Of a DNA stretch of 64,000 bases, positions 7,856 to 59,850 are shown piece after piece (position 1 is the stretch's first letter; each line of letters starts with the position of its first letter). Position numbers and translations under genes: made by a program. Location: positions 1 through 64,000 of the forward strand of contig NZ_WMBA01000013.1 of the NCBI RefSeq assembly GCF_009707865.1. The letters run 5' to 3'. This stretch comes from Amycolatopsis pithecellobii (GTDB taxonomy: Bacteria > Actinomycetota > Actinomycetes > Mycobacteriales > Pseudonocardiaceae). Below the pieces are notes generated by a model that was not told where the DNA came from, did not search any database, and was given only the letters and a program-made list of their open reading frames with translations.

Positions 7856-7857
7856 GC

Positions 7858-19859: not shown

Positions 19860-19874
19860 CTTCCAAGGAGAATC

Positions 19875-43062: not shown

Positions 43063-43509
43063 ATGGGTCACTACTCGGAGCGGCTGCTGACCTTCGTCAA
43101 GCGTGCGGAACAGGCCACTCAACAGGCCAAGGAGCAGGTGCTGCGGGAGTTCGGTCTCACGCCCGCTCAGCAGGCCGCACTGACCATCTTGAGTTACCAC
43201 GACGGCATCACCTCCGCCGAACTAGCCCGGCAATGTCAGGTCACGCCGCAGACCATGAACAGCACGGTGGGGCGCTTGCTGAGCCGTGGCCTGGTCCAGC
43301 GCGCCGCCCATCCCGTGCATCGCACCCTGCTCGAGATCCGGCTCACCGACCAGGGGCGTGAGGTGTTCGACCGCGCCGACGCGCGCGTCACAGCACTGGA
43401 CAACGACCTCGCCGCGAACCTCACGTCCGGCGAACTCAAGACGCTCAAAGCACTGCTGGCCCAGGTGACCGAAGCCGCACAACGCGCCGGCCACGCGCTG
43501 CCGTTCTGA
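43063..43509 (+). CDS. MarR-family transcriptional regulator
   Basis: A 148-residue MarR regulator with a full winged helix: QQAALTILSYHDGITSAELA (about 37-56), then VTPQTMNSTVGRLLSRGLV as recognition helix and RTLLEIRLTDQGREVF as wing. It probably represses itself and the divergent HbpS-like gene. The 90-bp gap between them is AT-richer than its surroundings and would hold the operator, although I found no convincing long palindrome in it. Confidence 0.92.
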   Translation: MGHYSERLLTFVKRAEQATQQAKEQVLREFGLTPAQQAALTILSYHDGITSAELARQCQVTPQTMNSTVGRLLSRGLVQRAAHPVHRTLLEIRLTDQGREVFDRADARVTALDNDLAANLTSGELKTLKALLAQVTEAAQRAGHALPF

Positions 43510-43607: not shown

Positions 43608-44243
43608 ATGGCTCGACCAGGTACGGCAACTCTGCGCGATAACGCGATCGGCTCGCCCGAAAATGGGAAACTGACGCCGGTCATGCTCAATCACGCGGCA
43701 TGGGTCACGCATGACGTGGAGAGCACGGCCGCTTTCTACACCAAAATCATGGGTATGGAGCTCGCAAGCACCATTTATGACGACAAGGTTCCGTCGACGG
43801 GTGACAGTTTTCCGTACTTTCACATCTTCTTCCGGATGCAGGACGGGTCGACGATCGCCTTTTTCGAGGCGCCCGGCCTGCCGGATCGTCCCGAGAGCAC
43901 CCATCCCGCCTACGAGGTCTTCGACCATCTTGCCCTGCAGGCGGCCGATCGCGGCGACGTCGACCGGTGGCTCGCGTGGCTCCGCGAAAACGACATCGAG
44001 GTGATCGGACCGATCGATCACAAGGGTTTTGTCTACAGCATCTACTTCCATGACCCCAACGGCATCCGCCTCGAGATCACGACACCACTGGATCCCGAAT
44101 GGAACCGGCACACCGAGCAGGGCGAAATCGACCTCGCCAAGTGGTGTGGGACGAAGAAGAAGGCACAGGCGGAAGGACGCGACGTTGCGGAGGCACTGCT
44201 CGAACTCATCCGCGAAGAGCGCAAGCGCTACGGGCATTCCTGA
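43608..44243 (+). CDS. VOC-family dioxygenase-like protein
   Basis: A 211-residue vicinal-oxygen-chelate protein resembling single-module extradiol dioxygenases. Metal-ligand candidates are the His in NHAAWVTHD (about residue 27), the His in FDHLALQ (about 105) and the Glu in DPNGIRLEI (about 155), a 2-His-1-carboxylate set. The C-terminal 40 residues are charged (REERKRYGHS end). GGAG stands 7 nt before the ATG at 43608. It is followed 19 bp later by an alpha/beta hydrolase, a pair expected for ring cleavage and C-C hydrolysis. Isomerase or glyoxalase activity is an alternative. Confidence 0.72.
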   Translation: MARPGTATLRDNAIGSPENGKLTPVMLNHAAWVTHDVESTAAFYTKIMGMELASTIYDDKVPSTGDSFPYFHIFFRMQDGSTIAFFEAPGLPDRPESTHPAYEVFDHLALQAADRGDVDRWLAWLRENDIEVIGPIDHKGFVYSIYFHDPNGIRLEITTPLDPEWNRHTEQGEIDLAKWCGTKKKAQAEGRDVAEALLELIREERKRYGHS

Positions 44244-44262
44244 GTCGGAAGGGCATCAGCGG

Positions 44263-45456
44263 ATGTCGTCGGACAACTCGCTCGATTTCGACTGGGTGCA
44301 CCTGGCCTACGATGAATCGGCAGCGTTCACCGAAACCTACGGCTTCGCGGGAAACCAGGGCGCGGTCAACCTCGAGGGGATACTGATACGTCCGCACGGC
44401 GTGCCGTCCCGCACGCTCTACGTGATGATGCACCCCGCGTCGACTCTCCAGCTGCTGCCTGTTCCACGGGCGATGGCGGCTGCCGGCGCACACGTTCTGT
44501 GCGCCGGCAGCCGCTACGCCCGCAACGACACCGCGTGTGTGCTGGAGAAGGTTCTGCTCGATCTCGGAGCCTATATCTCGCATGCGAAAAACGTGTGGGA
44601 ATACGAGCAAATCGTGCTCCTTGGCTGGAGTGGTGGTGGCTCGCTCGCGCTCTTCTACCAGTCACAGGCCGAACATCCCAGCATCACGCACACTCCGGCA
44701 GGCGACCCGGTGGACATCACGAGTGCCGGCCTGATGCCCGCGGACGCCGTCGTTTTCCAGGCCGCACATATCTCACGTGCGCGGATGCTTTCCGAGATGA
44801 TCGACCCCTCGGTCCGCAACGAGCTCGATCCCGATGACCGGGACCCTGAGCTCGACATCTATGCCCCCGGCAATCCGAACCGCCCGCCATACCCGGCCGA
44901 GTTCGTGTCCCGATATCGGGCCGCCCAGCTGGACCGGGTGCGGCGGATCACGGCGGGGGTGAAGCAGCAGCTCAACCAGCTGAGGCAGCTCGGTACCGGG
45001 GAAGTGGAACGCGGCTTCGTCACACACCGGACGCTGGCCGACCCACGGTTCCTCGATGCGACACTCGATCCGAATGGCAGGCGGCCTGACTGGTGTTACC
45101 TCGGCAAGCCGGAAACGGTGAACAACGGGCCTGTGGGGCTGGCACGTTTTTCGACACTGCGCGCCTGGCTGTCGCAATGGTCGATCGACGACACCAACGC
45201 TGATGGTCTGCGTAGCGCTTCCCGGATCAGTGTCCCATTCCTTGCCATCGAGAACAGCGCTGACGACGCGGTTCCCGAGCCGCATATCCGGTCCGTGTTC
45301 GAGGCGGCGGCATCGCGGGACAAACAGTTCGTGACCATCGAGGGGGCCACGCACTATTACGCCGGTCAGGCCGGCAAGCTCGAGGAGGTGACCCGAATCT
45401 CGATGGATTGGGCCCGCGAGCAGGCAAATCGCGGCAGGCAAGGTCCTCGAGGGTGA
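44263..45456 (+). CDS. Alpha/beta hydrolase of the aromatic catabolic island
   Basis: A 397-residue hydrolase. The nucleophile lies in LLGWSGGGSLALF (about 117-129), an oxyanion region in VMMHPASTLQLLPVP, and the late His in EGATHYYAGQAGKL. The acid is probably Asp in ENSADDAVPEPH. The insertion between nucleophile and acid is long (about 180 residues), larger than in meta-cleavage hydrolases, so an esterase or amidase is also possible. It is co-directional with the VOC gene and ends 1 bp before the end of the convergent LuxR gene. Confidence 0.78.
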   Translation: MSSDNSLDFDWVHLAYDESAAFTETYGFAGNQGAVNLEGILIRPHGVPSRTLYVMMHPASTLQLLPVPRAMAAAGAHVLCAGSRYARNDTACVLEKVLLDLGAYISHAKNVWEYEQIVLLGWSGGGSLALFYQSQAEHPSITHTPAGDPVDITSAGLMPADAVVFQAAHISRARMLSEMIDPSVRNELDPDDRDPELDIYAPGNPNRPPYPAEFVSRYRAAQLDRVRRITAGVKQQLNQLRQLGTGEVERGFVTHRTLADPRFLDATLDPNGRRPDWCYLGKPETVNNGPVGLARFSTLRAWLSQWSIDDTNADGLRSASRISVPFLAIENSADDAVPEPHIRSVFEAAASRDKQFVTIEGATHYYAGQAGKLEEVTRISMDWAREQANRGRQGPRG

Positions 45457-45457
45457 A

Positions 45458-46315
45458 CTACGACGTGGCGCGGCTGCCGCCGAGTCCGGCATGTCCGCGG
45501 AGGTAGCGCTCCTCCCAGAGGTCGAGATACCACAGGAGCAGTTCGCGTTGCGTCGTGATCTCCAGCCGCTGGTAGGCGCGCTTGCGGTAGGTGGTCGCCG
45601 TCTCGTCACCGATATGGAGATCGATCGCGATGTCGTTCGACGACATACCGTAGAGAATGCGTGCGCAGACCTGCTTCTCGCGGGGGCTCAGGGGAATCCG
45701 GCTGTTCGTAAGGCAGTTCTCGATCTGATCCAGGGAAGTCAGTGCCCGGCGAAGGTTCAGGTCCTGGCGAAGTACGCCGACATGTTTGTCGATGATCGCC
45801 AGCAGCACCGACGAGACCTCGTGTACCTGCCGGAGATCCTCGCCGCCGAATATGCCGGCCTTCGAGGTGCGTAACACGCTCAGGCCGATGACCCCCGTCG
45901 CCGAGCGGCCGCACAACAGAACCCGGTCGCAGACGCCGGCCCTCGTGTACAACCGGTCACGGTAGGCCACATCGGGAAGCTCCCGGACCGCCATGTGTAC
46001 CACACTGGACGTGTGCCGCCCGGTGAGTTGCTTGCGGGACTGGAGGATCATCGGGTCACTCTTCCACCGCTGGCCCTCGAGATAGAGCCGAGCCTGCCGC
46101 TGCGCGACATCGATGCTGTTCAGGCCGGCCGTGGTGACCATCTGCCCACCGAGGGAGTTCAGGTGGAATACCGTGCAATAGTCGGCGCCGCACACGTCGT
46201 GCAGCAGCGCGAGAAGCCGGTTACCGAAGTCCCGCTCACCGATGCCGTCGACAAGGCCGGCCAAGCCGGCCGGCGAGGAACTGATGGGCGGCTCGGCAGA
46301 AACCACGAATGTCAT
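45458..46315 (-). CDS. LuxR-family regulator
   Basis: A 285-residue regulator. The N-terminal 190 residues form a GAF/PAS-like sensor (DYCTVFHLNSLGGQ near 45-60); the C-terminal LuxR helix-turn-helix is LSPREKQVCARILYGMSSNDIAIDLHI, ending TATTYRKRAYQRLEI (about 215-265). It sits between the VOC/hydrolase genes and the ferredoxin/reductase genes and likely regulates the aromatic island. A perfect 15-bp hairpin separates it from the ferredoxin gene, so it has its own promoter or depends on read-through. The ATG at 46315 is the first with family-like sequence after it. Confidence 0.85.
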   Translation of the reverse strand: MTFVVSAEPPISSSPAGLAGLVDGIGERDFGNRLLALLHDVCGADYCTVFHLNSLGGQMVTTAGLNSIDVAQRQARLYLEGQRWKSDPMILQSRKQLTGRHTSSVVHMAVRELPDVAYRDRLYTRAGVCDRVLLCGRSATGVIGLSVLRTSKAGIFGGEDLRQVHEVSSVLLAIIDKHVGVLRQDLNLRRALTSLDQIENCLTNSRIPLSPREKQVCARILYGMSSNDIAIDLHIGDETATTYRKRAYQRLEITTQRELLLWYLDLWEERYLRGHAGLGGSRATS

Positions 46316-46384
46316 GGGCCACCAGCCTTCCTGATCTCCGTTGACCTGCTGGGACGGGCATCCGACGTTAACAAGGAGGGCGTG

Positions 46385-46420
46385 CCTGGTGCTGTCCCCT
46401 GCCAGGGGGACAGCACCAGG
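46385..46420 (-). terminator. Perfect 15-bp hairpin after the ferredoxin gene
   Basis: CCTGGTGCTGTCCCC (46385-46399) pairs perfectly with GGGGACAGCACCAGG (46406-46420) around a 6-nt loop. It starts 2 nt after the ferredoxin stop and precedes the LuxR gene on the same strand. No U-tract follows, so it may be a U-less terminator or an mRNA-stabilising element. Confidence 0.65.
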
Positions 46421-46422
46421 CT

Positions 46423-46740
46423 TCAGTCTTCCGGAGCGATGGTGACGTTGAGGCCATCGAGGTCCTCGGAGAACGGGATCTGGCAGGCGAGGCGGGAGGT
46501 GGGGCGACGGTGATCGCTGCTTTCGAGCAGGTCGGATTCGTCCTCGCTCTGCGGCGGAAGGAGGTTCGAGCATTCCGGGTCCACATAGACGTGGCACGTG
46601 GCGCAGGAGAGGCAACCACCGCAGAGCGCGAGAAGCTCGTCGATCCCGTTGTCGCGAATCAACTCCATGACCGAAAGGCCGTCCACCCCCACCACGGTGT
46701 GCTCGTGGCCGTCGCGATCGGTCACCACAATCTTGCTCAT
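46423..46740 (-). CDS. 2Fe-2S ferredoxin (putidaredoxin type)
   Basis: A 105-residue adrenodoxin/putidaredoxin-type ferredoxin. The cluster ligands are Cys40, Cys46, Cys49 and Cys86 (C-x5-C-x2-C then LACQIP); an additional Cys43 lies between the first two. It carries electrons from the neighbouring FAD reductase to an oxygenase. The divergent Rieske oxygenase is the obvious partner, though Rieske demethylases more often use a fused reductase; here a separate three-component system is implied. The start follows the reductase stop by 3 bp. Confidence 0.93.
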
Positions 46741-46743
46741 GTG

Positions 46744-47994
46744 TCATCCATTCCCACGTGTTTCGAGCATCTGCTTGAGCGGTTCGCCGACGTCGGCAAG
46801 CCGCTCCGGTGCCACTTCGGCCCCGTGGAGCACGAGGGCGCGTCCCTGGACGTAGTCCTTGACGGCATTGACGCAGTCGAGTGCGATCACCCGGCCTCGT
46901 CTCAGATATACAACCGAGAAACTCCGGGTTTCCGGGTCGCCGCGGAGCACCTCCTGGTCGTATCCGGCCGACAGCCCTACCGTCTGGAGCTTGAGATCGA
47001 ACTGGTTCGACCAGAACCAGGGCACCGCGCGGTATGCGACCTCTTCACCCATGGCGGCTTTCGCGGAGACGAGGGCCATCTCATGGGCGTTCTGCACCGA
47101 TTCCAGCCGGATCTCCCGCCCGTCGGCGAACGGGTTGACGTGCAGTGCGCAGTCCCCGATCGCGAAGATCGAGGGAAGTGACGTGCGGCAGAACTCGTCG
47201 ACCGCGACACCGTCGCCGCCTCGGGCGCCCGCCGCGAGCAAAGGCTCGACCGCGGGCACGATTCCGATCCCGACGATGACCACGTCGGCCGGGAGCACCT
47301 CGCCCGAGGTCAGCCGGACACCACACACACGGCCCGCGGTGCCGTCGATCCGGTCGACGCTGGAGTGGAGCCGGACGTCGACGCCGTGCGCCCGATGCTG
47401 CTCTTCGTAGAAACGCGACAGTTCGCACCCCGCGACACGGGCGAGCACCCGCTCCTGCGTTTCGACCACGGTCACCTGTTTTCCGGTTTTCGCCAGCACC
47501 GCCGCGGCTTCCAGGCCGATGTAGCCGCCACCGATCACCACGACACGGCCGGCCCGCCCCAGGTCGCTCAACAGCCGGTCGACGTCCTTGTAGGACCGCA
47601 CATAGTGCACGCCGGCGAGATCATGCCCAGGACACCTGACCCTTCGCGGGCGGCCCCCGGCGCACCAGATCAACTGCCCATAGCCGATTGTCCGGTCGTC
47701 GTCCATGCGGACGGTCCTGCGGACCGGATCCACCGCGCCCACCCGATGCCCCAGGTAGATCTCGACGTGGCGATTGTGCCAGTACGAAGGTGCGCGGATC
47801 AGAAGCCGGGTGACGTCCTTCTGCCCGGCTAGGTACTCCTTCGACAGTGGTGGCCGCTCATAGGGGAGCACGTCCTCGTCACCGACGATCGCCAGGGTGC
47901 CGTTGAATCCTCGCTGCCGAAGCGTGGTGGCCGCATGCGCTCCGCCATGCCCGCCGCCGACGATCAGGATGTCGAAGCAAGCGTTCGAGGTCAC
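46744..47994 (-). CDS. FAD-dependent ferredoxin reductase
   Basis: A 416-residue reductase of the BphA4/putidaredoxin reductase class. The FAD loop is ILIVGGGHGGAHAA at the N-terminus, the NADH loop VVVIGGGYIGLEAAAVL near residue 145, and IFAIGDCA near 270 completes FAD binding. It reduces the adjacent 2Fe-2S ferredoxin from NAD(P)H. The GTG at 47994 is preferred to the adjacent TTG at 47997; the ribosome binding site is weak. It is the first gene of a two-gene minus-strand operon, divergent from the Rieske oxygenase, with a shared 236-bp control region. Confidence 0.93.
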   Translation of the reverse strand: MTSNACFDILIVGGGHGGAHAATTLRQRGFNGTLAIVGDEDVLPYERPPLSKEYLAGQKDVTRLLIRAPSYWHNRHVEIYLGHRVGAVDPVRRTVRMDDDRTIGYGQLIWCAGGRPRRVRCPGHDLAGVHYVRSYKDVDRLLSDLGRAGRVVVIGGGYIGLEAAAVLAKTGKQVTVVETQERVLARVAGCELSRFYEEQHRAHGVDVRLHSSVDRIDGTAGRVCGVRLTSGEVLPADVVIVGIGIVPAVEPLLAAGARGGDGVAVDEFCRTSLPSIFAIGDCALHVNPFADGREIRLESVQNAHEMALVSAKAAMGEEVAYRAVPWFWSNQFDLKLQTVGLSAGYDQEVLRGDPETRSFSVVYLRRGRVIALDCVNAVKDYVQGRALVLHGAEVAPERLADVGEPLKQMLETRGNG

Positions 47995-48016
47995 CAAAAC
48001 CGTTGCCCGCCTTATC

Positions 48017-48042
48017 GAACTGAATACTGTGCCGTTCGGTTC
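48017..48042. promoter_or_regulatory. Inverted repeat in the reductase/Rieske divergent promoter region
   Basis: GAACTGAA (48017-48024) and TTCGGTTC (48035-48042) are inverted copies with one mismatch and a 10-nt spacer, close to the reductase start in the 236-bp gap. The arms are about two helical turns apart, as for a dimeric regulator such as the LuxR protein encoded next door. Binding is inferred. Confidence 0.45.
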
Positions 48043-48230
48043 AGGCGGGAAGTCTAAAGCGGCCTCGCGGCGGGTGAAGACCCCTGCGACGGGGACGGGA
48101 CAGCGCGGCCGACCTGCGCCGTCCCGACGCGGGGGGACTCCCGCCGGCGCCTTTTGTGGTTAGCCTCCCGTATCGGTTCTGGTCATCGAATCCCAGGCCT
48201 TGATTCCCAGCCTCATCGAGGAGGATGACG

Positions 48231-49283
48231 ATGCTGAAGAACACCTGGTATGCCGCGGCGTGGTCGGACGAACTGGTCCACGGCCGGCCTTTGGGGCGGC
48301 GATTTCTGAACGAGCCAGTGGTCATGTTCCGGCAAGCGGACGGCACACCTGTGGCGTTGAGCGACCTTTGCCCACACCGGTTCGCACCGCTGCATCGGGG
48401 CAAGCAGGTGGGCGATGTCATCCAGTGCGGTTACCACGGCCTGGAGTTCGGCGCTGACGGCCGGTGCGTACGCAATCCTCATGGCAAGGGCGTGCCTTCG
48501 GGTGCCCGCGTGCGCCGTTATCCCATGGTCGAGCGGTACAACCTGCTGTGGATCTGGCCGGGTGCGGGAGAACCAGACGACACCCTGATTCCCGGCGAAT
48601 TCGCGTTCCTCACCGAAAGCGGGCGCGCGCACAATCGTGGATACATCAATGCGAATGCCAACTATCTGCTCATGCTCGACAATTTGATGGACGTCTCGCA
48701 CGCGCTGTATCTGCATTCGGGCAGCCTCACCACCGAGGACATGCGGCAGAACTACGAACCCAAGGTCGGCATCGAGGACGGTGTGACGAAGCTGGTCATC
48801 AACCAGTACGAGGTCGTTCCGCCGCCGTTCTGGGCGGCCGCGCTTCCGCCCGGGACCGAGCGCGTCGACGTGCGTGAGACCTCGCACGGGCACATGCCGT
48901 CCTTGGTGATGCACGAGATGGTGTACAGCCAGGTTGGCCGGCCCCCGTACAGCGAAGGCGGGGTTTCCTCCCGATCGGCGCATTTGTACACGCCCGAGAC
49001 CGACGGCACGACGCACTATTTCTACTGCCTTTCCCGGGACTTCCACCGCGACGATGCCGAAGTCCACGAAAAGATCAGTGCGGAGCTCCACCGGATCTTC
49101 ACGACCGAGGACGTGCCGATGATCGAGGCACAACAACGTCTCATCGGCGACCGGGACCTGATGTCGATGAAACCGGCGCTGATCCACACCGACAAGGCAT
49201 CGGTGTTGATGCGCAGGCACCTCGCCGGGCTCATCGAAAAGGAGAAGGCCGCTGCCGGCGAGCTGGCCGGTGCGAACCATTGA
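48231..49283 (+). CDS. Rieske non-heme iron oxygenase (VanA/dicamba demethylase-like)
   Basis: A 350-residue oxygenase alpha subunit. The Rieske centre is C47-P-H49 and C66-G-Y-H69; the mononuclear iron site has D154, H157 and H162 in DVSHALYLH. Length and N-terminus (LKNTWYAAAW) resemble vanillate and dicamba O-demethylases, which use a single alpha subunit. It therefore probably O- or N-demethylates, or hydroxylates, an aromatic acid. GAGGAGG at 48218-48224 with 6-nt spacing selects the ATG at 48231 over that at 48225. It heads the long plus-strand catabolic operon. Confidence 0.9.
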   Translation: MLKNTWYAAAWSDELVHGRPLGRRFLNEPVVMFRQADGTPVALSDLCPHRFAPLHRGKQVGDVIQCGYHGLEFGADGRCVRNPHGKGVPSGARVRRYPMVERYNLLWIWPGAGEPDDTLIPGEFAFLTESGRAHNRGYINANANYLLMLDNLMDVSHALYLHSGSLTTEDMRQNYEPKVGIEDGVTKLVINQYEVVPPPFWAAALPPGTERVDVRETSHGHMPSLVMHEMVYSQVGRPPYSEGGVSSRSAHLYTPETDGTTHYFYCLSRDFHRDDAEVHEKISAELHRIFTTEDVPMIEAQQRLIGDRDLMSMKPALIHTDKASVLMRRHLAGLIEKEKAAAGELAGANH

Positions 49284-49318
49284 GGTCAGCGGAGGGAACG
49301 CGAAGCGAGACATGCACC

Positions 49319-51037
49319 ATGGACGATCGCACGCACACGCCGGTTCTGATCGCCGGAGGCGGGCCGGTCGGCCTCGCACTGGCGCTCGACCTCGGCCGGC
49401 GGGGAATTGCTTCCACGCTCGTCGAGCGCGATCCTGGCACCGGGACCGAGCTGCTGGCCAAGGCGGACCTGCTCAACGAGCGCAGCATGGAATTCTGCCG
49501 GCTTCTCGGAATCGCCGACGAGGTCGCCAATTCCGGCTTTCCCGATGATGTGCCACGCGACACCGTGTACTGCACTTCGCTGAACGGCTATCTCATCGGC
49601 CGCGAACCGCTCCCGTCCACAAAGGAGAGGCCACTGCCGCCGCAGACGCCCGAGATGCACCGGCGATGCCCGCAGTTCCTGTTCGATCCGTTGCTGGCGC
49701 GTGCCGTCGCTCGGCGAGGCATGACCGATCTGCGGTACAGCACCGAACTCGAGTCGTTCGTCCAGGACGATGACGGCGTGACCTGCGTGGTGCGGAGGAC
49801 GGATGACCGGTCGCGCCAGGAAGTTCGGGCGCGGTATCTGGTGGGATGTGACGGCTTGACCTCCGGGGTGCGCAAGGCACTGGGAATCTCGTTCGGCGGT
49901 GTCCAGCTGGACTATTCGGTCAGTGTGGTGGTGCGGGCTGAGCAACTGACGCGCTTCCACCCCTTCGGTATGGCGGAACGGTACATGTTCATCGGTCCGG
50001 AGGGCACCTGGGCGAACCTGACCTCCGTCGACGGGCGGTCGCTGTTCAGGTTCACGATGGTCGGATCCGAGGAGAAGCTGGACCCCGACCACCTCGACAT
50101 GCACGCACTGCTGCGGCGCGCCTTCGGCCGGCCCGATATCCCCTACGAGCTCATGCGGGTCATGCCGTTCCGGCGTAGCCAGTTCACCGCGGAGCGATTC
50201 CACTGTGGACGGGTGTTCCTCGCTGGCGACGCGGCCCACACCATGTCGCCGACCGGTGGGCACGGCCTGAACACCGGGCTGGGGGATGTGACGGATCTGG
50301 GCTGGATCCTTGAGGCATCGGTGCGTGGCTGGGGCGGCCCGGCGCTGGCCGGTGCCTACACCGCGGAGCGCAGGCCGGTCGCCTTACGCAACGGCTCCAG
50401 TTCGACCCGGAACTACGCCGCGTGGGTCGATCGCGAAGGACGGGAACTGGTACTGGAGCCCGGGCCGGAGGCCGATGCCCAGCGCGAGGCACTGGGCCGG
50501 ACACTCACCGAGAAACTGAAGCAGGAATGGCATTCATTCGGTATCGCCATGGGCTACGACTACGCCGGCTCACCGGTCATAGTCCCGGACGGCTCGTCCG
50601 CGCCGCCGGACGAACCCAGCAGCTATGTCCAGACTGCACGCCCCGGCCACCGCGCGCCCCACGCCTGGCTACCGGACGGCAGGTCGATCATCGACCTCTT
50701 CGGCGGGGGGTTCGTCCTTCTGCGCTTCGGCACGGATGCCGCGGCGACCGGCGCGATCGAGAGCGCGGCGCGGAGCGCGGGGATGCCGCTCGAGTGCCTG
50801 ACGATGACCGACCCTCATCTCGCGGCTCTCTACGAACGCAGGCTGGTGCTGGTTCGCCCGGACGGAATGGTCGCCTGGCGCGGAGACACGGCACCGGAAG
50901 ATGCACAAGCCCTTGTGGACCACGTCCGCGGCGCGGCGAAGACACCCGCTGGGGCTGATCGAGAAGGAGAAACGCATGGCACAGCGCACTTTCGCGGTGG
51001 CACCGGGAATCCCGTCGGCTCGGCACAGCGTCACTGA
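49319..51037 (+). CDS. FAD-dependent aromatic hydroxylase (MhpA/PheA-like)
   Basis: A 572-residue class A flavoprotein monooxygenase. GGGPVG at residues 13-18, GCDG near 180 and LAGDAAHTMSPTGGHGLNTGLGDV near 300 are the three FAD motifs; a C-terminal thioredoxin-like domain (IDLFGGGFVLLRFG, about 460-560) is present, as in phenol-hydroxylase relatives. It is likely to hydroxylate the ring of the demethylated substrate. It contains a TTA codon (50384-50386). The 3' 62 bp overlap the next small gene. The ATG at 49319 is in the position expected for the family. Confidence 0.9.
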   Translation: MDDRTHTPVLIAGGGPVGLALALDLGRRGIASTLVERDPGTGTELLAKADLLNERSMEFCRLLGIADEVANSGFPDDVPRDTVYCTSLNGYLIGREPLPSTKERPLPPQTPEMHRRCPQFLFDPLLARAVARRGMTDLRYSTELESFVQDDDGVTCVVRRTDDRSRQEVRARYLVGCDGLTSGVRKALGISFGGVQLDYSVSVVVRAEQLTRFHPFGMAERYMFIGPEGTWANLTSVDGRSLFRFTMVGSEEKLDPDHLDMHALLRRAFGRPDIPYELMRVMPFRRSQFTAERFHCGRVFLAGDAAHTMSPTGGHGLNTGLGDVTDLGWILEASVRGWGGPALAGAYTAERRPVALRNGSSSTRNYAAWVDREGRELVLEPGPEADAQREALGRTLTEKLKQEWHSFGIAMGYDYAGSPVIVPDGSSAPPDEPSSYVQTARPGHRAPHAWLPDGRSIIDLFGGGFVLLRFGTDAAATGAIESAARSAGMPLECLTMTDPHLAALYERRLVLVRPDGMVAWRGDTAPEDAQALVDHVRGAAKTPAGADREGETHGTAHFRGGTGNPVGSAQRH

Positions 51038-51239
51038 AGCCGAACTCCGTGCGGCCGGAGTCGATCTGCTCCGCGACTTTCCCGGATCATCGCCGTCGGA
51101 CTTCCGGAAATACCCGGTCCTTTCCGAAGGGGGCTGGTTTCTGACCATCAAACACCAGCCAACCCTCCGTGTTGTCGACCGTGTGTGCTGGCGCCTGCTC
51201 GGGCCGCTCGAACTGACATCCGAGGGACTCGACATATGA
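50976..51239 (+). CDS. Small conserved-looking protein of unknown function
   Basis: An 87-residue protein that I do not recognise. It starts inside the 3' end of the hydroxylase gene (62-bp overlap, different frame) with an excellent AAGGAG 7 nt before the ATG, and its stop overlaps the HyuA start (ATGA, 51236-51239). That double coupling and its hydrophobic-aromatic pattern (FPGSSPSDFRKYPVL, GGWFLTIKHQPTLRVVDRVCW) argue that it is a real gene. There is one Cys, no signal peptide and no evident motif. It may be an accessory subunit of the hydroxylase or the HyuAB enzyme. Confidence 0.7.
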   Translation: MAQRTFAVAPGIPSARHSVTEAELRAAGVDLLRDFPGSSPSDFRKYPVLSEGGWFLTIKHQPTLRVVDRVCWRLLGPLELTSEGLDI

Positions 51240-53305: not shown

Positions 53306-53323
53306 GAGCAAGGAAACCTGGCA

Positions 53324-55297
53324 ATGGACATCAACAACACGGCTCCGGTCGCGGTTCGCGATCTCGACGAGCCGGCATTCGCCGGCCGTTACCAGGCGGA
53401 CCGCTTCACCATCTCGGTCATCGCCAACCGTATGCGCTACGTCATGCAGCACGTCTGTACCGGGCTCCTACGCGAGTCGTTCTCACCGATCATGCGTGAA
53501 TGGTTCGATTTCGGTGCCGCGCTGAACGGGCCGCCGGAGCTGAACTACGCGTTGAGCGCGTTCGGTGACAGTCTGATCATTTTCGCCGGCGCCATGGAAC
53601 CAGCGGTCCGCAATACCGTGGAGGAGTACCGGCCCCGGCACCTCCGGCCTGGCGATCTGCTGATCTGCAACGACCCGTACCGGTGCGGCACACACGTCAA
53701 CGACATCGCGTTCATCCGGCCGATTTACCACGGCGAACGGCTCATGGGGTTCGCGACGATCCGGGCGCACCAGCTGGATATCGGTGGCACGGTCCCGGCC
53801 GGATTCAGTGCGGGCAAGCGCAATGTCTACGAAAACGGTCTTGTCATCCCGCCGATGCTGTTGTATCGCGACGACGAGCCGATCGCTTCGGTGTTCACAT
53901 TGATCTTCGACAATTCGCGCTTTCCTCAGGTACTGCTGCCCGATATCAAATCGATCTTCCAGTCGCTGCGGCTGGCGGAACGGCTGCTGGGCGAGACGAT
54001 CGACCGGTACGGAGAGGACGCGTTTTTCGGCGCGATGCGCTACAACACCGACGTTTCGGCCGACGCGATGCGGGAAGCGATCCGGACCAAGATTCCCGAC
54101 GGCGTCTACGAAGGTGAGGAGATCATCGACGCCGACGCGGTCGATGACAGCCTGGAGTACCGGATCAAGATCACCATCTCCAAGTACGGCGACGCCGTGG
54201 AAGTCGATCTCGGCGGCACTTCCGGGCAGGCACGAAGCAGTATCAACTGCTCGGCGTTCGACACCATGACCGCGGTGTCGGTCGCGCTGAAACTGCTGAT
54301 CGAACCGCACGTGCCGTTCTCCTCCGGCTACGCCCGCAATATCGATGTCGTGGTGCCACCCGGCACGATTCTGAGTGCCACCCCACCCGACGGTGCGATC
54401 ATGATGTACTTCGAGTGCTCCCACCTCGTGGTGGCGGCGGTCTGCAAGGCACTGAACAAGGTCCTGGGTGCGGATGCCATCGGCGGTGCGCACGGGTCGG
54501 GCATGGTCCACGTGGCCACCGGCCGCCGTGCCGATGGAACCCCGTGGGTGTCGGCCGCGGAGTGTGGCGGCGAAAAGGGGCCGTGGGGCGCGTCCAAAGC
54601 CGGCGACGGTGACAGCTATACGGTCGAGCGCCTGATCAATGCGATGGATGTGCCGGTGGAGTCGACCGAGCAAGGCTCACCGGTCCTGATGATGCGCCGT
54701 GAGTACGTGACCGACTCCGGAGGGCCCGGTTTGTATCGCGGTGGCGCGTCGGTCCGCCGGGACACCTGCTGGCTCACGCCCGCTGATCATGTCAGCACGC
54801 CCTTGCATTCCAAGGCGACGGCCGGGTTCGGGGCGAATGACGGTGGTGCCGGTGCGGTGGCGGCAACGTGGATTTTCCCGCGCGAGGTGTTCGACGTCGA
54901 GGCGGAGGCGGACCTGTTGCCGACAGATCCCGGGATCTACCGCGAATCGATACCGGTGAGCGGGATGCTTCACCCGGACACGAAAGTGCCCGATCCCGGC
55001 GGCGAGTATTTCTATTTCGGACGTGTGCCGTTGTGGCATACCGCACCCGGCGCGCATTTCCGCTATCAGACCGGCGGCGGTGGCGGATGGGGACACCCGT
55101 GGAAACGTGACCCGGAACGGGTCCGTGCGGACGTACGTGACGAATACGTCTCGATATCGGGCGCCCTGCGCGACTACGGAGTCGTGATCACAGGAGACCC
55201 GGCGCTCGACCCGGAGGGGCTCCGGATCGATGTGGAGGCCACCCGGCGCGCCCGCGAGCAAATGTGCGATCAGGCAGGCCAGGAGGGAAAAGAATGA
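53324..55297 (+). CDS. hyuB: Hydantoinase/oxoprolinase B-family subunit
   Basis: A 657-residue HyuB-family protein. NDPYRCGTHVNDIAFIRPIYH near residue 115 holds probable metal ligands of the family, and the Gly-rich HGSGMVHVATG and GGGGGWGHP (close to the C-terminus) are typical. It is the catalytic partner of HyuA. No hydantoin racemase or carbamoylase is adjacent, so classic hydantoin breakdown is unlikely. Within an aromatic island, acetophenone-carboxylase-like or lactam-opening chemistry is the better guess. Its stop overlaps the amidohydrolase start (ATGA). Confidence 0.92.
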   Translation: MDINNTAPVAVRDLDEPAFAGRYQADRFTISVIANRMRYVMQHVCTGLLRESFSPIMREWFDFGAALNGPPELNYALSAFGDSLIIFAGAMEPAVRNTVEEYRPRHLRPGDLLICNDPYRCGTHVNDIAFIRPIYHGERLMGFATIRAHQLDIGGTVPAGFSAGKRNVYENGLVIPPMLLYRDDEPIASVFTLIFDNSRFPQVLLPDIKSIFQSLRLAERLLGETIDRYGEDAFFGAMRYNTDVSADAMREAIRTKIPDGVYEGEEIIDADAVDDSLEYRIKITISKYGDAVEVDLGGTSGQARSSINCSAFDTMTAVSVALKLLIEPHVPFSSGYARNIDVVVPPGTILSATPPDGAIMMYFECSHLVVAAVCKALNKVLGADAIGGAHGSGMVHVATGRRADGTPWVSAAECGGEKGPWGASKAGDGDSYTVERLINAMDVPVESTEQGSPVLMMRREYVTDSGGPGLYRGGASVRRDTCWLTPADHVSTPLHSKATAGFGANDGGAGAVAATWIFPREVFDVEAEADLLPTDPGIYRESIPVSGMLHPDTKVPDPGGEYFYFGRVPLWHTAPGAHFRYQTGGGGGWGHPWKRDPERVRADVRDEYVSISGALRDYGVVITGDPALDPEGLRIDVEATRRAREQMCDQAGQEGKE

Positions 55298-56280
55298 CAC
55301 CGACGATCCATGACGCCATCGATGTCCACGCGCATTCGATGCTGCCGAGCTGGTACCAGATGCTGGCGAAGAAATTCGGCACGCCCGATCCGCGGATAGA
55401 GGGGGTCGCCATTCCTGAGTGGAGCCCCGAATTGGCCATCGAGGTGATGGACCGGTACGGCATCCAGGCGATGGTCCTGTCCAACCCCATCGGGACGAAG
55501 GACCTGTCGGGCGACGAGGCGGTGTCGTTGGCGCGCCGCATGAACGACGAATCGGCCGAGATTCTGGCCCGGTATCCGACCCGCTTCGGCGCCTTTGCGG
55601 CCCTGCCCCTGCAGGATATCGACGCGACGCTCGCGGAGCTGGACTACGCCTTGGACACGCTCGGCTTCGACGGCGTCTGCCTGCAGACGAGCTTCGAGGG
55701 TGCCTACCCGGGACATCCGCGGTTCGAGCCCATGTTCGCCGAGCTGAACCGCAGGCAGGCCACCGCCTTCGTGCATCCGGTGAGTCCGGTCTATTCGGCT
55801 CAGGTCGACGTTCCGGTGATCACGGGGATGCTCGAATTCGTTTTCGACAGCACGCGCGCGGTGGTGAGCCTGGTCTGCTCGGGGCTGCGGCAGAAGTACC
55901 CCGATTTCCATTACATCGCCACACATGGCGGTGGGACGCTACCGTACCTGGCCGACCGGATTTCCTTCGTCACCGAGGAACGGGGCACCGGCTACGAAAA
56001 GCAGCTCAGCTACGACGAGGTGGTGGCGGGCCTGCGGACCATCCATTTCGACCTGGCGATGACAACCTCCCGGGAAGCGCTGGTGTCGTTGCGCGAGCTG
56101 GTGCCGGCGAGTCAGCTGCTGATCGGATTCGATTATCCGATGGTGCCGGAAAAGTACATCCGGCCGGCGATGGACAAGCTGCTTTCCTCCGGTGTCTTCA
56201 GTGAAGCCGAACTGGCTGCCATCGCGAACGAGAACAGCCTGCGGTTGATGCCGAGCCTGGCGAAGCGGCTGGGCAAGTAG
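55294..56280 (+). CDS. Amidohydrolase-2 family (ACMSD/resorcylate decarboxylase-like)
   Basis: A 328-residue TIM-barrel metalloenzyme. Metal and catalytic residues expected in ACMSD-like enzymes are visible: His12 and His14 (DVHAH), His161 (FVHP), His211 (ATHGGG) and Asp280 (GFDYP). Many relatives decarboxylate aromatic or muconate acids without redox; some hydrolyse lactones or amides. In this operon it could remove a carboxyl from a ring or ring-cleavage product. The ATG overlaps the HyuB stop at 55294-55297. Decarboxylation versus hydrolysis cannot be settled from sequence. Confidence 0.87.
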   Translation: MTPTIHDAIDVHAHSMLPSWYQMLAKKFGTPDPRIEGVAIPEWSPELAIEVMDRYGIQAMVLSNPIGTKDLSGDEAVSLARRMNDESAEILARYPTRFGAFAALPLQDIDATLAELDYALDTLGFDGVCLQTSFEGAYPGHPRFEPMFAELNRRQATAFVHPVSPVYSAQVDVPVITGMLEFVFDSTRAVVSLVCSGLRQKYPDFHYIATHGGGTLPYLADRISFVTEERGTGYEKQLSYDEVVAGLRTIHFDLAMTTSREALVSLRELVPASQLLIGFDYPMVPEKYIRPAMDKLLSSGVFSEAELAAIANENSLRLMPSLAKRLGK

Positions 56281-56315
56281 ATAACCGAACTGGGGCCTCA
56301 ACGGTGAGGAGAACG

Positions 56316-57692
56316 ATGATGTCCGCTACGACGCCTCGTGATGCCGATTCGATTCGAGACGTGATCGACAGCTCGCCCATCAGCCGGTTCCAAGCACTGG
56401 TGGTGGGAATCAGTGTCGGGCTCAGCTTGGTCGACGGGTTCGACCTGTTCGTGATGTCATTCGCGGCGTCTCCGATCGCGAAGGAGTGGTCGCTCAACGG
56501 ATCCCAGGTCGGTTTGCTGCTCAGCAGCGGCCTGCTGGGAATGGCGCTCGGCTCGGCCTTCGTCGCGCCCCTGGCGGACCGGGTCGGCCGGCGGCCGTTG
56601 AGCATCGCATGCCTTTCGCTGTCGGTCGCCGGCATGGGTCTCGCGATTCTCACCACCGGGTTCGCCGGGCTCGCGCTGTGTCGCATCTTGACCGGTTTGG
56701 GCATCGGCGGGCTCGTCGCGAGCCTGCCCGTGATCATCGCCGAATACTCGCCACGGCGCCGGCGCGGTGCGCTGATCGCGCTGTACGCGGCGGGACTGCC
56801 GTTCGGGGGGATCATAGGCGGGTTCGTGGCGACCTTCGTCACGACGGAACTGGGCTGGAGGGCGAGTTTCGCCGTCGGTGCCGGGCTGACGTTGCTGCTC
56901 CTGCTGGTCGCGGTGGCGGCGCTGCCGGAATCGCTCGATTTTCTCCTCGTCCGGCGGCCGAAGCGGGCGCTCGAGCGAGTGAACGCGCTGCTCGCACGGA
57001 TGGGCCGGAACCTCGTCGAGGAGTTGCCGGTGGCGGTCCGGGTCCGTGAGGACCGGGTCGGGGCGGCGGTGCTGAGCGGGCGGAACGGGATTCGCTCCGT
57101 GCTGCTCTGGATCAGCTATTTCGTGGCGTACGGGTGTTACTTGTTCGCGGCGAGCTGGATGCCGCTGCTGCTGCAGCGGAGTGGATTCAGCTCGCACCAG
57201 AGCATCAACGGCGGCACGCTGATGAGCGCCGGGGGAGTGGCCGGCATCCTGTTGTTCGGCGGGCTCGCGCTGGTTTGGTCGGCCCGGATGCTGACGGTCG
57301 CGTGTTTCGTCGGTCTGGGATTGACGTTCGTGGCCATCTCGATATCGGCCGGCAGCCCGGTGCTGATTCTCCTCGTCGCGGCGGCGATGGGCATTTTCGG
57401 CAACGCGGTCGCCGCCGGGTTGTTCGCGATCGCGCCCGATCTCTATCCGGCGGCCGTCCGGAGTACCGCGGTCGGATGGGCCGTCGCGATCGGCAGGATC
57501 GGGGCGATCGTTTCGCCGGTGCTCGCGGGCTTGCTCGTCGACCAGAAGTGGTCGACCCAGCAGATTTTCGGTGTGTTCGCACCCCCGATGGCCGTGGCGG
57601 CACTGGCGACCCTCGGTCTTGGCGGGAGGCGGCTCGCACGTTCCCGCAAACCGGCGCTCGACCCGGACAAGGCGACCGATGTTGTGTCGTAG
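56316..57692 (+). CDS. AAHS-family aromatic acid:H+ symporter (PcaK-like)
   Basis: A 458-residue 12-helix transporter. The first helix carries LVDGFDLFVMSF, the DGFDL signature of aromatic acid:H+ symporters, and LADRVGRRPLSI is motif A between helices 2 and 3. It likely imports the aromatic acid consumed by the surrounding enzymes. AGGAG stands just upstream; the ATG at 56316 and the one at 56319 are both possible. It is 35 bp after the amidohydrolase and in the same orientation, so it is part of the operon. Confidence 0.92.
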   Translation: MMSATTPRDADSIRDVIDSSPISRFQALVVGISVGLSLVDGFDLFVMSFAASPIAKEWSLNGSQVGLLLSSGLLGMALGSAFVAPLADRVGRRPLSIACLSLSVAGMGLAILTTGFAGLALCRILTGLGIGGLVASLPVIIAEYSPRRRRGALIALYAAGLPFGGIIGGFVATFVTTELGWRASFAVGAGLTLLLLLVAVAALPESLDFLLVRRPKRALERVNALLARMGRNLVEELPVAVRVREDRVGAAVLSGRNGIRSVLLWISYFVAYGCYLFAASWMPLLLQRSGFSSHQSINGGTLMSAGGVAGILLFGGLALVWSARMLTVACFVGLGLTFVAISISAGSPVLILLVAAAMGIFGNAVAAGLFAIAPDLYPAAVRSTAVGWAVAIGRIGAIVSPVLAGLLVDQKWSTQQIFGVFAPPMAVAALATLGLGGRRLARSRKPALDPDKATDVVS

Positions 57693-57739
57693 GTCCGGAT
57701 TGTCCCCTGTTCGTGAATACCAAGGTGTTGTGAGGTTTT

Positions 57740-58648
57740 ATGACCGGGAGCATTGAAATCGTGGAGGTCGCGCCGCGCGACGGCCTGCAGAACGAAGAGG
57801 TCGTGCTGTCCACATCGGACAAACTGAAGCTGATCGAGCGCGCGATCGAAGCAGGCGCGAAGCGCATCGAAGCGACCAGCTTCGTCAATCCGGCACGAAT
57901 TCCCCAGATGGCCGATGCGGAGGCCGTGGCGGCAGCACTGCCTCGCGAACGAGGCGTCACGTTCGTCGGTCTGGTCCTCAACAAGCGCGGCGCGATCCGC
58001 GCGGTGGATGCGGGAATGGACGAGCTGGGTGCCGTCGCCGTGGCATCCGACGGGCTGGGCCGCCGTAACCAAGGCCAGAGCAGCGCCGAGTCGGTTGCCG
58101 TGGCCGGTGAAATCGTCGAATTCGCCCACGCCCAGGGCCGTGCAGCGCAAATCACCATCGCGGCGGCTTTCGGTTGTCCCTTCGAGGGAAACGTCGCGCC
58201 CGGTCGCGTTATCGCTATCGCGCGACAGGTTGCGGAGAGCAAGCCGCGTGAAGTGGCGCTCGCCGATACGATCGGCGTCGCGGCACCGGGCCAGGTCGGG
58301 AAACTCGTTCGCGCGGTGCGCGAGGCTATCGCGCCGATCCCGCTGCGCGTGCATTTCCACAACACGCGTAACACCGGCCTGGCGAATGTCTGGGCCGCCG
58401 TCATGGCCGGTGCGCAGACCGTCGACGCCGCCGTCGGTGGCATCGGCGGCTGCCCGTTCTCTCCCGGCGCGGCCGGCAACGTCGCGACGGAGGACGTTGT
58501 CTATCTGCTCGAGAGGTCCGGTATCGGAACGTCGATGTCGCTCGATCAGCTCATCGAGACGGCGCACTGGCTGGGTGACGTCGTCGGGCATCGAACCCCG
58601 GGAATGGTGGCCCGTGCCGCGTCGTTTCCCCCGGTGGACTCCGTATGA
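57740..58648 (+). CDS. HMG-CoA lyase-like enzyme
   Basis: A 302-residue DRE-TIM metallolyase. EVAPRDGLQNE (Arg13 and Asp14) and VHFHNTRNTG hold the metal/acid residues, and the flexible G-loop GGIGGCPFSPGAAGNVATED has its catalytic Cys. It should cleave a 3-hydroxy-3-methylglutaryl-CoA-type thioester to acetyl-CoA and a beta-keto acid, or a related branched hydroxyacyl-CoA. Paired with the CoA-transferase that follows (ATGA overlap, 58645-58648), it forms a two-step module: activate a hydroxydicarboxylate, then cleave it into central metabolites. The true substrate may differ from HMG. Confidence 0.9.
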   Translation: MTGSIEIVEVAPRDGLQNEEVVLSTSDKLKLIERAIEAGAKRIEATSFVNPARIPQMADAEAVAAALPRERGVTFVGLVLNKRGAIRAVDAGMDELGAVAVASDGLGRRNQGQSSAESVAVAGEIVEFAHAQGRAAQITIAAAFGCPFEGNVAPGRVIAIARQVAESKPREVALADTIGVAAPGQVGKLVRAVREAIAPIPLRVHFHNTRNTGLANVWAAVMAGAQTVDAAVGGIGGCPFSPGAAGNVATEDVVYLLERSGIGTSMSLDQLIETAHWLGDVVGHRTPGMVARAASFPPVDSV

Positions 58649-59850
58649 CTGTGCACAGCGTGTCGTCGGCAGGCCCGCTCCACGGATTGCGTGTTGTCGA
58701 GATGGGGCAGTTGATCGCCGGCCCCTTTTGCGGGCAGTTACTGGGTGACCTTGGCGCGGACGTCATCAAGATCGAGCCGCCTGGCGCCGGTGATCCGATG
58801 CGACGGTGGGGCCGCGGCGATCCTCCGGTGTGGTGGGAGGTCATCGCCCGCAACAAGCGCTCGGTGTCGATCGACTTGCGGAGGCCAGAGGGACAGGAGC
58901 TCGCCCGCCGGCTCATCATGACCGCTGATGTTCTGATCGAGAACTTCAGGCCGGGCACCTTGGAGAAATGGGATTTGGCGCCGGAGAAGCTCAGGACCGG
59001 CAACCCCCGGCTGATCGTGGCTCGCCTGTCCGGCTACGGCCAGGACGGACCCTACGCGCAGCGCACGGGATTCGGTCTGGTCGGCGAGGCCATGGGCGGG
59101 CTCCGCCACATCGTGGGTTCTCCTGACCGGCCGCCGTCGCGGGTCGGCATCTCGATCGGTGATTCGCTGTGCGGCACATACACGGCACTCGGCATACTCG
59201 CGGCGGTTACCGAAAGGCAGTGCTCCGGCCGGGGGCAAGTGATCGACAGCTCCCTCTACGAGTCGGTTCTCCAAGTCATGGAAAGCCTCGTCGCCGACTA
59301 TTCCGTGCACGGGATCGTGCGGGAGAGAAGCGGAGCCATACTTCCTGGCATCGCCCCGTCCAATGGCTATCCGTGCCGCGACGGTCAGTACCTGATCGGC
59401 GCCAACCAGGACGCCGTCTTCGCGCGGCTTTGCGCGGCGATGGACCAGCCCGAACTGGCCCGCGATCCCCGTTTCGGTGACCACGTGGCCAGGGGCCGGC
59501 ATCAGGCGGAACTGGACGAACTCATCTCGGCGTGGACGCGCGGGCACACGGTCGGCGAAATCGATGAACTGATGGTGTCGCACCGCGTGCCCGGCGGGCG
59601 TTCCTACACCGCGCGCGAGATGGTCAGCGACCCGCATTTCGCCGCACGCCAGTCGATCGTCACCCTCGATCACCCCAAACTGGGCCCGATCATGATGCAG
59701 AATGTGGCGCCGCGTTTCTCCCGCACCCCAGCCGTGGTGCGGCGCCTCGCGCCTGCTCATCCGGGGGAGCACAACCAGGAAATCCTGGGTGAGTTGCTCC
59801 GGTTGCCCGACGACCGGATCGCCGCTCTCCAGGAAACAGGGGTGATCTGA
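58645..59850 (+). CDS. Class III (CaiB/BaiF) CoA-transferase
   Basis: A 401-residue family III CoA-transferase. The N-terminus GLRVVEMGQLIAGPFCGQLLGDLGADVIKIE is the family hallmark (quoted in part positions 14-44), and Asp173 (ISIGDSLCG) corresponds to the catalytic aspartate. It transfers CoA from succinyl-CoA or another donor to an organic acid. It is coupled to the lyase gene by an ATGA overlap and is the last gene of the catabolic operon. It contains a TTA codon at 58738-58740. The overlap with the lyase suggests substrate channelling. Confidence 0.93.
   Translation: MTVHSVSSAGPLHGLRVVEMGQLIAGPFCGQLLGDLGADVIKIEPPGAGDPMRRWGRGDPPVWWEVIARNKRSVSIDLRRPEGQELARRLIMTADVLIENFRPGTLEKWDLAPEKLRTGNPRLIVARLSGYGQDGPYAQRTGFGLVGEAMGGLRHIVGSPDRPPSRVGISIGDSLCGTYTALGILAAVTERQCSGRGQVIDSSLYESVLQVMESLVADYSVHGIVRERSGAILPGIAPSNGYPCRDGQYLIGANQDAVFARLCAAMDQPELARDPRFGDHVARGRHQAELDELISAWTRGHTVGEIDELMVSHRVPGGRSYTAREMVSDPHFAARQSIVTLDHPKLGPIMMQNVAPRFSRTPAVVRRLAPAHPGEHNQEILGELLRLPDDRIAALQETGVI

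Follow-up and report, generated by a model that had tools for sequence, protein, structure and literature searches.

The window analysed here is a 64,000-nucleotide stretch of Amycolatopsis pithecellobii DNA (contig NZ_WMBA01000013.1), in which a first-pass annotation had marked an aromatic catabolic island at 43608-59850. We put a probability of slightly more than one half (roughly 0.53) on the reading that this gene block is an acquired island encoding one aromatic route, in which a ring compound would be trimmed and hydroxylated, the resulting hydroquinone opened by a VOC-family protein together with an alpha/beta hydrolase, and the products finished at the CoA level. A single aromatic catabolic route is the likely function of the island. 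All the protein classes that had been listed for it, from the carrier and the three-component Rieske oxygenase to the CoA-transferase and the HMG-CoA-lyase-like (HMGL) enzyme, are encoded there according to Pfam and NCBIfam matches (Table 1). Genes for a MarR-family regulator, the VOC protein and the hydrolase lie on the forward strand, those for a LuxR-type regulator, ferredoxin and reductase on the reverse strand, and a forward run of eight follows in the order Rieske oxygenase, FAD hydroxylase, HyuA, HyuB, amidohydrolase, MFS carrier, HMGL and CaiB. The sole gap of more than 50 bp in this run is 231 bp between the FAD hydroxylase and HyuA genes; the VOC and hydrolase genes are separated by 19 bp, and those of the ferredoxin and reductase by 3 bp. 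The 16 kb from 43000 have a guanine-plus-cytosine (GC) content of 0.652, the lowest of 49 overlapping 16-kb stretches tested in the window, which together with the tight spacing in the run argues that the genes are grouped by more than chance. Terminator-like sites number 6 against 8.3 in shuffles, none of them between genes of the Rieske-to-CaiB run, and a site search found no promoter-like sites.

Ring cleavage is the step with the strongest evidence. When a profile of seven VOC relatives was compared with solved structures, PDB entry 9u42 scored 193.9 bits (2.1e-56) and the next entry 71.0 bits; a fold search gives 9u42 the title homogentisate 1,2-dioxygenase, with Acinetobacter as the source. 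The gene order fahA-maiA-VOC-IclR, with hppD opposite, is found on an Acinetobacter plasmid, where the 10.5 kb fetched around this locus carry no annotation of another homogentisate dioxygenase. Identity between the window protein and that plasmid homologue is 31%, and H29, H107 and E156, putative metal ligands judging from the superfamily, are invariant in 7/7 aligned rows, the Acinetobacter homologue included. Because the window protein is related to a VOC-type homogentisate 1,2-dioxygenase, a hydroquinone is its probable ring substrate. The literature search found no paper on the 9u42 enzyme.

Classical catechol-type extradiol (meta) cleavage, in which the Rieske and FAD enzymes would make a catechol, the VOC protein cleave it and the hydrolase act on the semialdehyde, is unlikely, although VOC folds do include extradiol dioxygenases. 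The AlphaFold model of the VOC protein (mean pLDDT 89) aligns to BphC and catechol 2,3-dioxygenase with Z 10.6-10.9; the profile also finds them, weakly (36-40 bits), but in sequence 9u42 leads by a wide margin. According to the available part of PMC11069340, the substrates of IfcB and FdeC have hydroxylated flavonoid A rings, on which these enzymes act. The HgmA-type partners of hydrolase relatives speak against a catechol, as does the rest of the island: the scan of island proteins showed no meta-pathway hydratase, and against 4-hydroxy-2-oxovalerate aldolase models with cut-offs of 229 and 286 the HMGL-like protein reaches just 45-47 bits.

The partner genes of the hydrolase (GxSxG at 121; D334 and H364 invariant) suggest that it is probably a C-C hydrolase standing in the place of fumarylacetoacetase. 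Relatives in Rhodococcus oxybenzonivorans (40% identity), Nocardia alba (57%) and Mycobacterium sp. Root135 (53%) adjoin HgmA-domain proteins, which stand where other loci have the VOC gene. Among the best 80 of 569 hydrolase loci, which were confirmed and some of which lie on short contigs so that neighbour counts are lower bounds, a VOC gene occurs within 5 kb of the hydrolase gene in 38, an HgmA-type gene in 2, a gentisate-type cupin gene in 2 and any of these in 40. The same distance contains a FAD hydroxylase gene at 22 of the 80 loci, LuxR at 19, CaiB at 11, HMGL at 6 and CaiB with HMGL at 6. Fifteen HyuA-anchored neighbourhoods, a weak control drawn from different genomes of different make-up, had VOC in 0/15 and CaiB in 4/15 within 5 kb. 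A VOC match at 1e-12 is present in 54 of 61 Variovorax genomes; short loci of the distant type there hold the hydrolase gene in 22/22 cases, a VOC label in 21/22 and a FAD gene in 12/22, often with LysR. From the 9u42 match, the Acinetobacter locus and the HgmA-type partners, the VOC protein and the hydrolase most likely act together to open a hydroquinone. Paraburkholderia sp. SG-MS1 has partial second copies of both genes beside the full-length ones, resembling a decaying duplication.

Preparation of the ring would fall to the Rieske system and the FAD hydroxylase. An oxygenase with a Rieske motif (CxH/CxxH at 49) and a mononuclear-iron motif (at 156), a ferredoxin and a reductase are encoded together, as expected of a DdmABC-type enzyme, and the earlier call of a three-component oxygenase holds, the ferredoxin and reductase genes being adjacent on the opposite strand. 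Among solved structures the oxygenase is closest to 7qwt (234 bits), which we take to be a guaiacol demethylase, and scores 210.8 bits against DdmC. Relatives in this class of Rieske O-demethylases also hydroxylate. The cysteine spacing of the ferredoxin is presumably that of the adrenodoxin/putidaredoxin type. A PF00848 search of the same genome returned two other oxygenases and not the VanA_C-type enzyme of the island.

For the FAD hydroxylase, neighbourhoods of homologues are informative. On a Sagittula plasmid (44.5% identity), cupin and FAH genes lie ~4-5 kb away; on a Bradyrhizobium plasmid (37.8%), the nearest FAH gene is at ~4 kb and a cupin gene at ~10 kb; and on an Acidovorax plasmid (47.7%), the region has a three-component Rieske system and fahA. 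These contexts fit a hydroxylase that forms a hydroquinone. A Frankiales metagenome-assembled genome (MAG) carries a 64% identical FAD hydroxylase near a 59% identical hydrolase. Separately, plasmid p53363 of Bradyrhizobium guangxiense holds FAD hydroxylase, carotenoid-oxygenase-like, VOC, several FAH, cupin and LeuCD genes within 30 kb, and FAD-hydroxylase matches of the same identity occur on plasmids of other peanut-associated Bradyrhizobium.

The closest solved structure to the FAD hydroxylase is RebC, presumably a biosynthetic enzyme, and PnpA scores only 87 bits. RebC is one of the points for regarding these genes as tailoring or self-handling functions of a secondary-metabolite cluster possibly situated in the window's left half; there, a FAD-hydroxylase/SDR fusion (5621-8425, -), an EryCIII-like glycosyltransferase (19875-21008, +) and a Gfo/Idh oxidoreductase (23058-24329, +) are encoded, and 5621-24329 is possibly a glycosylated aromatic natural-product cluster, as judged from its genes. 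The GC contrast between the island and the rest of the window, and the presence of a CoA-transferase, an HMGL-type enzyme and an aromatic-acid carrier, all unsuited to tailoring, make that account very improbable.

A block resembling part of the island occurs in Sphingomonadales. The Sphingobium plasmids pMI1 and pTK2 have, in order, genes for a CoA-transferase, an HMG-CoA-lyase-like enzyme, LeuC, LeuD, VOC, LuxR (opposite strand), hydrolase and thiolase, and similar blocks are found in Croceicoccus, Novosphingobium B1 and Sphingomonas tagetis. Identities between the window and the pMI1/pTK2 proteins are 66-69% for VOC, 71% for the hydrolase, 39-40% for LuxR, 37-38% for HMGL and 42-43% for CaiB. 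The plasmid module has LeuCD, P450s and acyl-CoA enzymes, whereas the window has the Rieske system, FAD hydroxylase, HyuAB and amidohydrolase. Besides scoring above its subfamily cut-off, the window HMGL-like protein has RDG, HFH and GxGGCP (here GIGGCP) motifs, which we take to be the catalytic motifs of HMG-CoA lyase. Chemistry that would fit a transferase, a lyase and LeuCD is the formation of citramalate in methylgentisate-type pathways and its cleavage as citramalyl-CoA. The CoA-level end is nevertheless the less certain part of the pathway: the island proteins scanned do not include a LeuCD-type hydratase, the identity of HMGL and CaiB to those of the module is only 37-43%, the genome has 7 HMGL-type matches, the island one included, and in two of four relatives fetched, CaiB (45%) and HMGL (38%) genes lie upstream of the same kinase gene that flanks the island on the right, in the reverse of their order in the window. 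With pairs beside the kinase gene and further HMGL matches in the genome, the CaiB-HMGL pair may not be specific to this pathway.

These CoA-level results count against the single route to a hydroquinone, and others do so for the ring-opening steps. Entry 9u42 ranks first in Foldseek (E 1.9e-13) yet superposes with a TM score of 0.33 and a root-mean-square deviation of 16.7, which a domain-swapped chain could explain; it is not among the 50 VIA-align entries shown, where methylmalonyl-CoA epimerases lead. Forty of the best 80 hydrolase loci, several of them on short contigs, have no VOC, HgmA or tested cupin gene within 5 kb. In Variovorax, seven of seven short loci with close-type VOC genes lack the hydrolase gene and all have a ferredoxin gene, and the hydrolase gene is absent from 16-18 kb around three such VOC genes. 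A Variovorax FAD-hydroxylase homologue (37.1%) stands beside an intradiol dioxygenase and a maleylacetate reductase, no recognizable ring-cleaving gene was seen near the homologues in RHA1 (50.5%) and in one genome of the phylum (55%), and the available sequence of the Frankiales MAG, whose FAD hydroxylase is the closest, contains no VOC match at 1e-15. Moreover, in the isoflavone (ifc) cluster of Variovorax, disruption of the hydrolase gene left daidzein degradation unaffected, according to the accessible portion of PMC11069340, so the hydrolase is not always required in early steps.

The roles of HyuAB and the amidohydrolase in the pathway are guesses. HyuA scores 317.2 bits against N-methylhydantoinase and 237.0 bits against the gamma subunit of acetophenone carboxylase among solved structures, and 341.9 bits against a caprolactamase alpha model whose cut-off is 1000; no curated model was matched above its cut-off by HyuAB, and the family models leave hydrolase versus carboxylase undecided. 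Searches of family and phylum genomes scored only the best few candidates per genome. HyuA was found at E <= 1e-150 in 21 of 200 genomes of the family, its own included, at 24 places, with relatives 50-64% identical in 20 of the 199 others (51-64% over the places listed, 50% in a local comparison). Of the 23 places in other genomes, we retrieved 15, from 13 genomes. None of these 15 loci has relatives of the VOC protein, hydrolase, Rieske oxygenase, FAD hydroxylase, amidohydrolase or HMGL, so that HyuAB does not serve to mark this pathway in relatives, and the same 17-20 kb as HyuAB contain an acyl-CoA ligase gene in 15/15 and an SDR gene in 12/15. Such loci, which recur in the family opposite TetR-, ADH-, ACAD- or ECH-like genes, are possibly ketone- or lactam-degrading, and their ligase and SDR partners suggest that HyuAB was probably recruited to the island separately.

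An N-heterocyclic substrate had been offered in the first-pass annotation, and nothing that we found singles it out. That HyuAB opens an N-heterocycle or lactam with ATP is improbable: the N-methylhydantoinase and caprolactamase matches suit this, but acetophenone carboxylase matches HyuA well too, and the constant company of an acyl-CoA ligase and usual company of an SDR in the family fit ketone carboxylation equally. The amidohydrolase is closest among solved structures to 2f6k, 2dvt and 4ign, of which 2f6k is named just a metal-dependent hydrolase, and has no NCBIfam model match; we assume that its HxH and GxDYP are the metal-ligand motifs of the ACMSD group. In the phylum search, it was present in 6 of 396 genomes including its own, at 39-43% identity in the others (E <= 1e-60).

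Composition and relatedness bear on the origin of the block. Mean GC in one-kb bins is 0.652 for the 16 inside the island and 0.700 for the 47 that lie outside (Mann-Whitney p 9e-8; the bin at 59000 is in neither set, and neighbouring bins are not independent). VOC matches at E <= 1e-15 occur in 10 of 297 family genomes, its own included, at 33-43% identity in the others, and more distant VOC-hydrolase pairs are present in the family. By comparison, VOC proteins on named Variovorax and Sphingobium plasmids are 65.6-69.3% identical to the window's, and the four closest hydrolases on named plasmids 61.9-71.4%. In a quick tree of 123 hydrolases, which carries a long-branch warning, rows from Rhodospirillales and Sphingomonadales join the window row in a seven-row group (not starred, SH-aLRT 89). 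Among starred sets, the smallest one that includes the window row has 46 rows; those with a named phylum are all Pseudomonadota apart from the Mycobacterium rows and the Frankiales MAG. The Rieske oxygenase had no match at E <= 1e-80 in the 296 other family genomes (1/297, its own), and the FAD hydroxylase was found in 2 of 396 phylum genomes, its own and one at 55% (E <= 1e-110). The low GC, together with proteobacterial plasmid relatives of VOC and hydrolase at 62-71% as against VOC relatives at <=43% in the family, suggests that the gene block is an acquired island.

The flanks were compared as well. On the right, two relatives have the kinase gene at 83-86% identity, and the ~15 kb upstream of it in those two contain no match (E <= 1e-15) to island open reading frames (ORFs) of >=140 residues; its 6 plasmid-record matches are all from Streptomyces, Nonomuraea or Kitasatospora. 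A tRNA-Val call at 61311, opposite in strand to the kinase gene that contains it, is probably spurious. Direct repeats, listed without a chance estimate, are short two- or three-copy matches, including a 20-nt pair at 90% (42413, 59396) inside genes near the edges. On the left, the MarR-family gene, with GC at third codon positions (GC3) between that of the island and its flanks, is possibly the edge. A divergent gene at 42550-42972 (-) encodes an HbpS/GlcG-like protein, with a homologue (33%) in the catabolic region of Sphingobium pMI1 visible only with the low-complexity filter off, and 39286-42474 (+) encodes a 1062-residue AAA_16 protein with a weak match to a TOMM kinase/cyclase model (88.4 bits, cut-off 705.75).

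Table 1. Genes of the predicted island and its possible left edge, in window coordinates.
Feature	Position	Strand	Supporting matches
MarR-family regulator	43063..43509	+	PF12802 46.0 bits, cut-off 27; GC3 0.826
VOC ring-cleaving dioxygenase, homogentisate-1,2-dioxygenase-like (predicted)	43608..44243	+	PF00903; 9u42 profile match
Alpha/beta hydrolase	44263..45456	+	weak PF12146 match, 31.7 bits, cut-off 27
LuxR-type regulator	45458..46315	-	PF00196; 39-40% identical to LuxR beside VOC and hydrolase on Sphingobium plasmids
[2Fe-2S] ferredoxin, 105 aa	46423..46740	-	PF00111 31.9 bits, cut-off 21; Cys 40/46/49/86
Ferredoxin reductase, AndAa/HcaD type	46744..47997	-	PF07992 Pyr_redox_2, PF14759 Reductase_C; NF041682 316.8 bits, below cut-off 650
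Rieske oxygenase, dicamba O-demethylase (VanA_C) type	48225..49283	+	PF00355, PF19112
FAD-dependent aromatic hydroxylase, PRK06126 subfamily	49319..51037 (alternative start 49280)	+	PF01494; NF004780 623.5 bits, cut-off 445
HyuA, hydantoinase/oxoprolinase/carboxylase family	51269..53305	+	PF01968, PF05378
HyuB	53324..55297	+	PF02538 408.3 bits
Amidohydrolase-2 protein, ACMSD/gamma-resorcylate-decarboxylase-like	55294..56280	+	PF04909; HxH and GxDYP motifs
MFS carrier, aromatic acid/H+ symport type	56304..57692	+	TIGR00895 319.2 bits, below cut-off 418.55
HMG-CoA-lyase-type enzyme	57740..58648	+	PF00682; NF004283 287.3 bits, cut-off 246
Family III CoA-transferase (CaiB/BaiF)	58645..59850	+	PF02515 413.7 bits; succinate-glutarate CoA-transferase model 268.5 bits, cut-off 750

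A search for the same set in other genomes had been proposed; the family and phylum searches found the whole set in none, and the VOC, hydrolase, LuxR, CaiB and HMGL classes do recur together in Sphingomonadales. Plasmid pJE1 has relatives of the VOC protein, hydrolase, Rieske oxygenase and FAD hydroxylase within ~33 kb, the last two 52% identical to the window's, and no paper on strain JE1 was among the literature matches listed. Separate occurrence of the parts had been named beforehand as a sign against a single pathway, and some of it is seen: HyuAB lies with ligase and SDR genes in the family, and VOC genes lie apart from the hydrolase gene in Variovorax. With one set of relatives together in Sphingomonadales and HyuAB relatives in other loci, these patterns suggest a mosaic, and we read them in this way rather than as disproof of a single pathway here. 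The alternative that VOC-hydrolase, LuxR-ferredoxin-reductase and Rieske-to-CaiB are unrelated neighbouring operons can appeal to the three transcription blocks in two directions and to parts found apart elsewhere; it is rather improbable, given that low GC is common to the stretch, that five of the classes recur together across these blocks and that the Rieske enzyme probably needs the ferredoxin and reductase encoded on the opposite strand.

Together, these results allow us to propose a pathway for the island. The MFS carrier, by its family, would import an aromatic acid. Electrons passed from reductase to ferredoxin to Rieske oxygenase would probably serve to remove a methyl group as formaldehyde or, as in some relatives, to hydroxylate, and the amidohydrolase-2 protein may decarboxylate the ring acid or a ring-fission product. 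The FAD hydroxylase would add a hydroxyl group to give a substituted hydroquinone, which the VOC dioxygenase, in the best-supported step, would cleave in the manner of homogentisate dioxygenase; the alpha/beta hydrolase would then split the resulting diketo acid, taking the part of fumarylacetoacetase in tyrosine breakdown. At the end, an acid such as a branched hydroxy-dicarboxylate might be activated by the CoA-transferase, and its CoA ester might then be cut by the HMG-CoA-lyase-type enzyme, probably to acetyl-CoA and a keto acid. HyuAB, of an ATP-dependent hydrolase/carboxylase family, would act between or beside other steps. This scheme keeps the flow sketched in the first-pass annotation as far as uptake, the Rieske enzyme (here of the dicamba-demethylase type), the hydroxylase, ring cleavage, the hydrolase and the CoA-level classes are concerned, and sharpens its ring opening to that of a hydroquinone.

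A wider proposal, tentative and somewhat doubtful, is that VOC, hydrolase, LuxR, CaiB and HMGL make up a mobile and as yet undescribed pathway that takes substituted hydroquinones, for example methylated ones, down to a keto acid and acetyl-CoA, with VOC replacing HgmA and the hydrolase replacing fumarylacetoacetase. Such a route would move among Sphingomonadales and other proteobacteria and, here, into an actinobacterium, where a Rieske demethylase, a decarboxylase and the ATP-dependent HyuAB enzyme would be joined to it for the use of a methoxylated aromatic acid. 'VOC family protein' is frequently the whole annotation of a single-domain VOC protein, as in many plasmid records in this search. 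If this VOC family cleaves hydroquinones with a hydrolase partner, many plasmid and rhizosphere clusters would become interpretable, among them the distant-type VOC-hydrolase pairs of Variovorax and the still unproven part of acetosyringone breakdown that follows AsdA. The island seemingly illustrates how a pathway is assembled from modules across phyla.

The first-pass annotation knew of no described pathway with exactly this set, and neither the set nor the Sphingobium-type module appears among the open-licence PMC matches listed; its core of FAD hydroxylase, VOC protein and hydrolase is, however, known from the ifc and asd clusters, as far as the available parts of those reports go. In the asd cluster for acetosyringone of Pseudomonas rhizophila AS1, genes for a FAD monooxygenase, a VOC protein, alpha/beta hydrolases and a transporter lie side by side; the route starts by hydroxylating the methoxylated ring, AsdA was identified through its resemblance to a PnpA, and the steps after AsdA are unproven (PMC12911418, in the part available). 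The asd genes named in that part do not include a Rieske system, HyuAB, amidohydrolase, HMGL or CoA-transferase, all of which the window has; asd would offer the nearest chemistry if the window's substrate is methoxylated.

The ifc cluster has a FAD hydroxylase, a glyoxalase-type dioxygenase and an alpha/beta hydrolase, each described in the accessible text as resembling a gene of fde, the naringenin cluster of Herbaspirillum (PMC11069340, PMC11303751). The window has all three of these gene classes, which, with the reported fde counterparts, speaks for an fde/ifc-type pathway acting on the A ring of a flavonoid or isoflavone. Such a pathway is quite unlikely here: the ifc cluster as described in the available text has the cupins IfcD1/D2, the scan of island proteins showed no cupin, and the island's carrier is of the aromatic-acid type; the window also adds the Rieske system, HyuAB and CoA-level enzymes. 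No ifc cluster was recognized with certainty in the 61 Variovorax genomes, the neighbourhoods of weaker VOC matches or two legume-plasmid FAD-hydroxylase loci.

In the hydroquinone route that we favour, the Acinetobacter enzyme of 9u42 is the closest solved relative of the window VOC protein, and its plasmid homologue has the same candidate metal ligands; the tyrosine-pathway neighbours of the Acinetobacter fahA-maiA-VOC-hppD locus, that is, hppD, maiA and fahA, are not among the island proteins scanned. For the trimming step, the comparison is with the dicamba O-demethylase DdmABC: the window oxygenase is of the DdmC type, and its ferredoxin and reductase belong to what we take to be the classes of DdmB and DdmA.

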